Shown here one piece after another: positions 14,540 to 36,738 of a DNA stretch of 37,180 nucleotides. The translations under genes and the position numbers were made by a program. This DNA comes from Candidatus Zambryskibacteria bacterium RIFCSPLOWO2_02_FULL_39_26 (lineage in GTDB: Bacteria > Patescibacteriota > Minisyncoccia > Phycocordibacterales > DATDWN01): the NCBI GenBank assembly GCA_001825395.1, contig MHWN01000008.1:11489-48668 (forward strand). Reading direction: 5' to 3'. Every line of letters begins with the position of its first letter. Position 1 is the first letter of the stretch. The notes below the pieces were generated by a model. The model made no database searches. It saw only the letters and a program-made list of their open reading frames with translations, and had not been told where the DNA came from.

Positions 14540-14644
14540 AATAATGAGACTTGGACACCCCGTTTCCAAGTGTATTTTGTAAAGAAAAACCGCCATATGT
14601 GTGTGCACATTATCTTGTCCGTTTGAATTAGTAATTTTTCATGT

Positions 14645-15336: not shown

Positions 15337-15636
15337 ATGCAAATAATAGAATCAAATAGTAAAATTGTTGAAAAAGTACTTAGAGATAAAGAAGGACGAC
15401 TTGTTCGTGCTAGTTTTCAGATTTATGAAGTGGCGGGACGAGTCAAGGCGAGACTTATTTATTTTACATATATTGAAACTCTAAAAGGAGCTGTTTTAAG
15501 TCTATCTAGTCTCATAAAACCTAAAATTGTCCGACTTGGAAGCCAGGCTTCCAAGTTGAGATTTGTGTCTCCATATTTTACAACTGACACACTAACTTTT
15601 AGTGGCTCTAAACCCAGAGCACCAACTTTTAGATAA
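15337..15636 (+). CDS. Hypothetical protein between grpE and dnaK
   Basis: ATG at 15337 in the 15304-15636 ORF; MQIIESNSKIVEKVLRDKEGRLVRASFQIYEVAGRVKARLIYF. Confidence 0.5.
   Translation: MQIIESNSKIVEKVLRDKEGRLVRASFQIYEVAGRVKARLIYFTYIETLKGAVLSLSSLIKPKIVRLGSQASKLRFVSPYFTTDTLTFSGSKPRAPTFR
15534..15556. repeat. Palindromic element copy 1 (ACTTGGAAGCC A GGCTTCCAAGT)
   Basis: Perfect 11-bp arms, 1-bp centre; 21/23 identical to the copy in aspS. Confidence 0.8.
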
Positions 15637-18120: not shown

Positions 18121-18160
18121 CATACACTTAATCTACGCTATAGCGTAGATTAAGTGTATG
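18121..18160. repeat. Perfect 40-bp palindrome
   Basis: CATACACTTAATCTACGCTA|TAGCGTAGATTAAGTGTATG: 20-bp arms, no spacer. Confidence 0.95.
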
Positions 18161-33541: not shown

Positions 33542-34837
33542 TTAAGGATTCAGCCTTTTCACGTCTCGCGGCAGATATGTTGCTTCGCGGACATTCGGTA
33601 AATCAAGTATTTTCATAATAAATCGTCCCGGACCAATACCCGCTCCACCGTGAGGAGGACAACCGTATCGGAAAAAGTTGATGTAATTTTTAAGTGGTTC
33701 CAGAGCCATTCCTTTTTCCTCGGCTTGTTTGATCAAAATATCTACTCTGTGTTCGCGTTGAGCGAGAGTTGTCACTTCCACACCTCTGTATAAAAGGTCT
33801 GCGCGTCTTGAGTAATCGCTACCTTCCTCCAATCTCATGTGATAAAAAGCGCTTTTTGATTTGTGGTACTCGTGAATAAAAACAAAATCATGACCCCGTT
33901 CTTTTTTTACATATTCTGATATCGCTCTTTCTTCTTCAGGCGAAAGGTCATATTTCTCCGGACTTGGAACCCTCATTTGGGCTAAAATTTCCTTCGCCTC
34001 CTTCATTGTAATTCTAGGAAACGGCTGACTTGGAAGCTCGGCTTCCAAGTCAGGGAATTTGGCTAAAATGGCTTTAAACCCTTCTATTATCATTCCCTCC
34101 TCCGCATCCATAACATCATGGTGTGACTCCACATAAGCCATCTCAAAATCCCAGCCGGTGAACTCTGTAAGATGCCGAGTGGTGAAAGATTCTTCTGCAC
34201 GAAATACGGGTGAGACCATAAAAACTTTCTCCATTCCGGATGCAATTCCCATTTGTTTGTAAAACTGTGGCGACTGGGCAAGATATGCTTTTTTATCAAA
34301 ATAATTCACCTCAAAAACTTGCGAGCCAGTCTCTGATGGAGTGGACATGAGAGCTGGCGGATACAGTTGGATAAAGTTATTTTCATCCCAATATTTTCTC
34401 CATCCTTTTTCAAACTCCGTCCAAACTTGAAAAATCTTAGCTTTTTCTGGTTTTCGCAAATCAATCCAACGATAATCAAGTCGCGTCGGAGCTTCGGTCT
34501 CCTCGTCATTACCCTTGACAATGACCGGAATCGGCAATTCCGGATCGGCTACGGACAATACCTCTATACTCTTAACTCCAATTTCTACCCCGCCCGGTGC
34601 TTGCTTAGATTCTTTGACGGCGCCTATAATCCTCACTACCGACTCATGCGACAACCCTTTGGCTGTTTCAAAAGCCGAGCTTCCAGCCTCAACCACAGTC
34701 TGTATCACTCCCGTAATGTCCCGAAGGATTAGAAAAATAATCTTACTTTGCACTCGGAGTGTATGGACAAATCCCGCAACACTAATCTCCTGTCCCACTT
34801 TTTCACCAATATCTTTGTTATAAATTCTTTGAATCAT
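33542..34837 (-). CDS. aspS: Aspartyl-tRNA synthetase, archaeal/eukaryotic-type short form
   Basis: OB fold then RWIDLRKPEKAKIFQV; MSTPSETGSQVFEVNYFDKKAYLAQSPQFYKQM; VSPVFRAEESFTTRHLTEFTGWDFEMAYVES; GGAGIGPGRFIMKIL. Confidence 0.93.
   Translation of the reverse strand: MIQRIYNKDIGEKVGQEISVAGFVHTLRVQSKIIFLILRDITGVIQTVVEAGSSAFETAKGLSHESVVRIIGAVKESKQAPGGVEIGVKSIEVLSVADPELPIPVIVKGNDEETEAPTRLDYRWIDLRKPEKAKIFQVWTEFEKGWRKYWDENNFIQLYPPALMSTPSETGSQVFEVNYFDKKAYLAQSPQFYKQMGIASGMEKVFMVSPVFRAEESFTTRHLTEFTGWDFEMAYVESHHDVMDAEEGMIIEGFKAILAKFPDLEAELPSQPFPRITMKEAKEILAQMRVPSPEKYDLSPEEERAISEYVKKERGHDFVFIHEYHKSKSAFYHMRLEEGSDYSRRADLLYRGVEVTTLAQREHRVDILIKQAEEKGMALEPLKNYINFFRYGCPPHGGAGIGPGRFIMKILDLPNVREATYLPRDVKRLNP
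34025..34053. repeat. Palindromic element copy 2, inside aspS
   Basis: CTGACTTGGAAGC-TCG-GCTTCCAAGTCAG, 13-bp perfect arms; core 21/23 identical to copy at 15534-15556. Confidence 0.85.
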
Positions 34838-36704: not shown

Positions 36705-36738
36705 AATCCCGTCGCTTACCTCCATAAGCGACGGGATT
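36705..36738 (-). terminator. Strong intrinsic terminator for the minus-strand gene at the window end
   Basis: AATCCCGTCGCTTA/TAAGCGACGGGATT, 14-bp perfect stem; minus strand continues TTCTTTTG. Confidence 0.85.

Follow-up and report, generated by a model that had tools for sequence, protein, structure and literature searches.

Palindromes that sit in frame within protein genes have been described in several bacterial systems. In subclass 2.4 of the TnpAREP/RAYT systems (Quentin et al., 2018; PMC6006769), the gene for a Y1/HUH protein is flanked by its own palindromes, and further palindromes lie within the transposase gene, reportedly as a rule between HuH and Y, and leave its frame intact. 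Copies in these systems are dispersed, and one genome can hold several families, each with its own gene. In-frame REPs in genes, RAYT genes of subclass 2.4 included, are thus already published (PMC3733652, PMC6006769). Canonical REPs are extragenic and reach high copy numbers (often >100). Their hairpins have a GT[AG]G guide tetranucleotide at the foot, which is absent in REP subclasses 2.6 and 3 (PMC6006769). The GTAG/CGTC REPs are tagged and mostly intergenic; their intragenic members form in-frame palindromes in repair, replication and tRNA-synthetase genes, and in one case, Xanthomonas recB, different REPs occupy about the same site (PMC3733652). Rickettsia palindromic elements (RPEs) of the Rickettsiales, about 105-146 bp long (PMC2229807), likewise lie in frame within conserved protein genes; RPE-4 and RPE-6 are CGTC REPs (PMC3733652). 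Parcubacteria and Patescibacteria are not mentioned in PMC6006769, and a search of open-licence papers returned none that describes palindromes of the kind reported here in Parcubacteria, or a RAYT in Patescibacteria.

We analyzed a stretch of 37,180 nt, referred to as the window, from a tiny Zambryskibacteria-like bacterium that is uncultured. It carries the palindrome CTGACTTGGAAGC-TCG-GCTTCCAAGTCAG at positions 34025-34053 (minus strand), with perfect arms of 13 bp and a 3-nt loop (TCG/CGA). The element lies in aspS (33542-34837, minus strand), which encodes a non-discriminating AspRS of 431 aa, identified by its profile match to aspartate--tRNA(Asn) ligase (NF003483, 457 bits). Its core (34028-34050) covers codons 263-270, and codons 263-271 read DLEAELPSQ. 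The AlphaFold2 model places the palindrome peptide in the loop that joins helix 239-260 to strand 275-277, with a pLDDT of about 91-97 for residues 261-280. A second copy, ACTTGGAAGCCAGGCTTCCAAGT, is found at 15534-15556 (plus strand), where 11-bp arms enclose a 1-nt loop and the sequence is read in frame as LGSQASKL. It matches the aspS core at 21 of 23 bases in a different codon frame; the first-pass annotation had reported this identity and frame difference, and had placed the aspS element at exactly these coordinates. The ORF around the second copy (15337-15636, plus strand, 99 aa) has no Pfam or NCBIfam match. Four genomes of the genus have homologues, so that the ORF is probably a genuine small gene; at the palindrome site it is about two codons longer than these homologues. 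A third copy, absent from the earlier listing, follows rpsI immediately (14549-14571, no strand assigned). This sequence, ACTTGGACACCCCGTTTCCAAGT, belongs to a sister variant, is decayed (18/23 positions self-complementary) and resembles ACTTGGAAACGCCGTTTCCAAGT, the palindrome beside the RAYT gene of a relative (G007). The window holds five strand-wise pattern matches with up to three mismatches, compared to 0.00 expected from 100 dinucleotide shuffles. Two other inverted repeats were noticed: a perfect palindrome of 40 bp, CATACACTTAATCTACGCTATAGCGTAGATTAAGTGTATG, which separates the ORFs of dnaK and dnaJ (18121-18160) and has a second copy, with matching changes on both arms, near an SMC-like gene (G000:C10:5460-5487), and a repeat, AATCCCGTCGCTTA...TAAGCGACGGGATT, whose arms measure 14 bp and which is located between ORFs at the trpS end (36705-36738).

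A pattern search of the whole genome (G000; 611 kb in 28 contigs) gave 12 forward and 12 reverse matches, and none with the reversed pattern as control. In total, the genome has 10 perfect copies, located on six contigs, and a few variants, so the genome-wide search that had been suggested did reveal further copies, and the palindrome is far above chance. Two of the copies lie 75 bp apart on contig C26 (L021, 3297-3394) and enclose a decayed palindrome of the GTCAACCTG type, and one of the two stands at the start of an ORF resembling an IS30-type transposase. Scanning 85,462 species genomes we found at least 113 stretches, and among the matches listed nearly all belong to Paceibacteria/Parcubacteria. 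The distribution across Paceibacteria is patchy: of the 397 genomes of the order, 18 contain the exact palindrome and 23 a GGAGGC version, with 0-15 copies per genome. Host genes with in-frame copies include aspS, argS, holB, secF, tsaE, miaA, fpg, ung and others. Counted in mechanical ORFs of at least 110 codons, some of which are spurious and which include the RAYT genes, 70 of 110 copies are intragenic, and the three codon phases are used 32, 27 and 11 times. The arms are free of stop codons in all six frames and read LEAxLPS, LGSxASK or TWKxxFQV. The coding-tolerant palindrome family proposed for this DNA thus exists, both in this genome and in frame within conserved genes of many relatives. 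At four loci (L085, L090, L114, L126) double palindromes, adjacent or overlapping and in frame (e.g. LEAKLPSGSLASKW, LEARLPSLLGSLASKW), look as though a second copy had been joined onto the first arm.

A Y1_Tnp search of the genome revealed six genes, five of them above the family cut-off. One of those that pass lies on contig C28, a contig other than that of the window, and encodes a RAYT-like protein of 216 aa (PF01797, 27.9 bits; cut-off 23). It scores 33 bits against the NCBIfam RAYT model NF047646, under the cut-off of 80. The HxH motif (residues 85/87) and Tyr145 are invariant among 23 homologues. For its predicted structure (mean pLDDT 76) the best match was 4er8 (E 6.9e-5, prob 1.00), a REP-associated tyrosine transposase in complex with a REP hairpin, followed by the IS608 and ISDra2 transposases. 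The gene is surrounded and interrupted by the palindrome: one copy lies about 25 bp before the start codon, a variant copy is read in frame near codons 62-70, an exact copy near codons 154-162, and a further one directly follows the stop. Low-confidence loops of the model (residues 51-69 and 155-158) overlap or abut both in-gene sites. Because a Y1 gene of the same genome carries the palindrome on both sides and twice inside, the closest parallel is the REP/RAYT pair and not the Rickettsia palindromic element. The Rickettsia comparison drawn earlier holds for the in-frame position of palindromes in protein genes; otherwise it is a loose one.

The same arrangement is seen in the relatives. Among 45 RAYT loci of this clade, palindromes of the locus' own version occupy fixed places, i.e. 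before the gene, at codon ~60, at codon ~155 and past the stop, with some of the loci lacking one or more of the four places and a few having none. The variants include GGAGGC, GGCGGT, GGACAT, GGGAGC, TAGTGG and TAGACG. For the 37 loci that have hairpins within the gene as well as next to it, inside and outside copies of the same locus had a similarity of 0.96, compared to 0.73 between different loci (0 of 20,000 permutations). RAYT-clade genes were found in 70 genomes at E<1e-40, and genomes with the exact or the GGAGGC version are enriched for them (Fisher p = 2.6e-11 over 397 genomes, from genome lists compiled by hand from tables). Seven of the 18 genomes with the exact palindrome have no RAYT at E<1e-40; hence copies outlive the gene or move without it, or the draft genome misses the RAYT. 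The palindrome family is tied to the RAYT gene, and every RAYT lineage is accompanied by a version of its own.

These observations lead us to propose, with good confidence, that a RAYT-like Y1/HUH single-strand transposase travelling through the Paceibacteria uses the palindrome as its REP-like substrate. Three observations speak against this: the GT[AG]G guide is missing, seven of the 18 genomes lack a RAYT as noted above, and the loop of the aspS copy deviates from that of most copies in its genome. Copies immediately before the start and past the stop of RAYT genes would also be expected if RAYT controlled itself through the palindrome as an operator or mRNA hairpin, with by-products or extra regulatory sites making up the scattered copies. 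We consider this quite unlikely as the full explanation: copies lie mid-gene in unrelated housekeeping genes and in all three codon frames, the loop turns over genome-wide, and an Rfam scan of the window and the RAYT contig returned no family. Such a function is not exclusive of a role as RAYT substrate and is compatible with it.

The pairing of palindrome and transposase recurs within the genome. The Y1 genes on contigs C19, C12 and C5 each have unrelated perfect palindromes of their own. The C19-type palindrome is present in six copies, three of them at its Y1 gene, including one in frame inside the gene, and another is in frame in a 468-codon ORF resembling an MBL-fold gene; the C12-type has 11 copies. 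Counting the C28 family, the genome contains three dispersed palindrome families, each paired with its own Y1 gene. Loci L026-L029 are further Y1 genes of the genome, on contigs C9, C5, C19 and C12.

Several features point to turnover of the copies inside genomes. Pairs of copies from one genome share the loop triplet in 78% of cases, compared to 18% in permutations (0/10,000), and most copies in the genome under study have the loop AAG, with TCG/CGA in the aspS copy. At orthologous sites the arms are identical or nearly so, while third-codon identity in the flanks is 43-56%, near saturation. In argS of three Giovannonibacteria the loops vary from genome to genome, and the GGAAGC that secF has in one species is replaced, with both arms changed, by GGAGGC in another. 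These sites are either hit repeatedly, or the copies are refreshed by the genome's own versions. The loop triplet is genome-specific, and some sites are reused in different lineages. The same loop of holB bears different palindrome versions by species (L024 in G000, L062 in G007, L228 in G008); the G008 site encodes NNLDTPCPS and looks like a GGACAC-type version.

The lineage-specific insertion at EAELPS for which the first-pass annotation had suggested a test was not found in aspS. The nearest palindrome-free AspRS relatives, four proteins with 63-84% identity, have the same length at this site. That annotation had named equal length together with equal residues in palindrome-free AspRS as evidence against its proposal; the length is indeed equal, but the residues differ and are weakly similar (ETKIEVPSQ, DINITIPSQ). 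The same codon of aspS carries a palindrome in three lineages (G000, L105, G027). In an AspRS tree from which the site was left out, L105, which bears the palindrome, falls outside the G000/G002/G010/G006 group, with weak to moderate support (54-79), and three of the four members of this group lack the palindrome. In G027, whose AspRS is 39% identical, a slightly decayed copy occupies the corresponding alignment column, and of 14 homologues without the palindrome 13 equal this AspRS in length there. AspRS types (33542-34837, loci L032-L060) are 78-84% identical in three genus members and about 40% or about 32% identical in others, and this divergence within a genus suggests gene replacement or different paralogues.

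Length changes at other sites vary. The change is zero in miaA (L112) and fpg, as in aspS, and gatA equals several of its homologues. Gains amount to two codons in tsaE, three in ung, about five in tsaD and rnr, six in holB and 16 in uvrC, which has two copies next to each other. With net changes between 0 and +16 codons, a clean insertion of fixed size does not describe the family. This range could arise in two ways, by replacement during the event or by insertion followed by selection for lengths that are tolerated. The clear gains in uvrC, holB and ung, and in-frame copies in many unrelated proteins as in Rickettsia (PMC2229807), are what RPE-like selfish palindromes would produce by inserting in frame, with RAYT as merely another host gene. 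However, RAYT is not a random host: its stereotyped palindromes covary per locus and co-occur with the gene at the genome level. The permutation test on the 37 loci strongly disfavors this explanation, to which the unchanged lengths in aspS, miaA and fpg are also opposed, and we regard it as unlikely.

Replacement guided by homology was rejected as a general rule. In the relatives, the DNA at the site resembles the palindrome in aspS (17/27 bases in the nearest, L032) and weakly in miaA; in fpg and gatA it is no nearer to the palindrome than background. Stepwise mutation is therefore unlikely, and this weakens the idea of a DNA-uptake or chromosome-organization signal of the DUS/USS or HIP1 type, which point mutations and selection would have built up. 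Length-neutral presence in genes is expected of words spread by substitution, but a signal of this kind is hard to reconcile with 0-15 copies per genome, presence in 18 of 397 genomes and the tie to a transposase, and we hold it to be highly improbable. The resemblance in L032 and the weakly similar residues of the relatives could in turn mean that LEAELPSQ is favored in AspRS and that codon choice produced the palindrome by coincidence. Such coincidences do occur: a 2-mismatch match in smc of G006 was dropped as one, all homologues encoding DLDxRLS-like residues there. For the perfect copies convergence is refuted, as the arms are identical (20/20) to those of copies in unrelated genes and other frames while the surrounding synonymous sites are saturated; overall, we give it hardly any credence.

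How a RAYT/palindrome pair might act can be outlined as follows. The RAYT would recognize the hairpin in single-stranded DNA, such as the lagging-strand template, and put copies elsewhere. Copies in genes would persist because the arms are stop-free in six frames and the sites fall in predicted surface loops. At part of the sites, aspS included, the event or its later repair may have swapped an equal length of DNA rather than added to it, and ongoing turnover or conversion within the genome would refresh orthologous sites with the local version. A bolder version, possible but doubtful at present, makes the pair a coding-sequence overwriter: at preferred positions of essential genes it would turn resident DNA of equal length into its own palindrome, and it would keep all copies of a genome uniform, those in its own gene included. 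If true, this would amount to a gene-conversion-like drive and not to transposition of the insertion type.

The system appears to work like a REP/RAYT pair, and since the GT[AG]G guide is absent (10 of 308 flanks within 12 nt, compared to 12.1 expected) we do not file it as a canonical REP. The hairpin flanks show only a mild C-rich/G-rich bias at ±1 to 3. With subclass 2.4 (PMC6006769) it shares the Y1/HUH protein, the flanking palindromes and the intact frame around in-gene copies, and, with the systems of that study, dispersed copies and several families per genome; unlike subclass 2.4, it has perfect hairpins with loops of 1-5 nt, few copies and no GT[AG]G foot. Within the gene, one site precedes the HUH motif (about codon 60) and the other follows the catalytic Tyr (about codon 155), in contrast to the position between the two that is reported as general for subclass 2.4. 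Compared to canonical REPs it has few copies, many of them in genes. The affected gene classes are those of the GTAG/CGTC REPs (PMC3733652), but 70 of 110 copies lie in ORFs and there are sites of apparent length-neutral replacement. RPEs are far longer than the 23-29 bp found here in Paceibacteria, where the element is tied to a transposase and length-neutral in aspS. The Y1 HUH fold is shared with IS200/IS605 TnpA, whereas here palindromes also occupy the gene itself and many single positions far from it. Four features are new: perfect hairpins without a guide, fixed sites at codons ~60 and ~155 that covary with the flanks, genome-specific versions at shared sites, and apparent length-neutral replacement. 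The mechanism behind them is inferred.

A partnership of palindrome and transposase is thus active in a bacterial group that ranks among the most gene-dense and reduced, in which nearly every landing site is a gene. Its copies amount to natural experiments by the dozen, with residues in tRNA synthetases, repair enzymes and secretion proteins rewritten by a selfish word of 23 bp. An old question, how REP sequences move and stay uniform, becomes testable, because shared sites bear genome-specific versions and insertion, replacement and conversion make different predictions for them.
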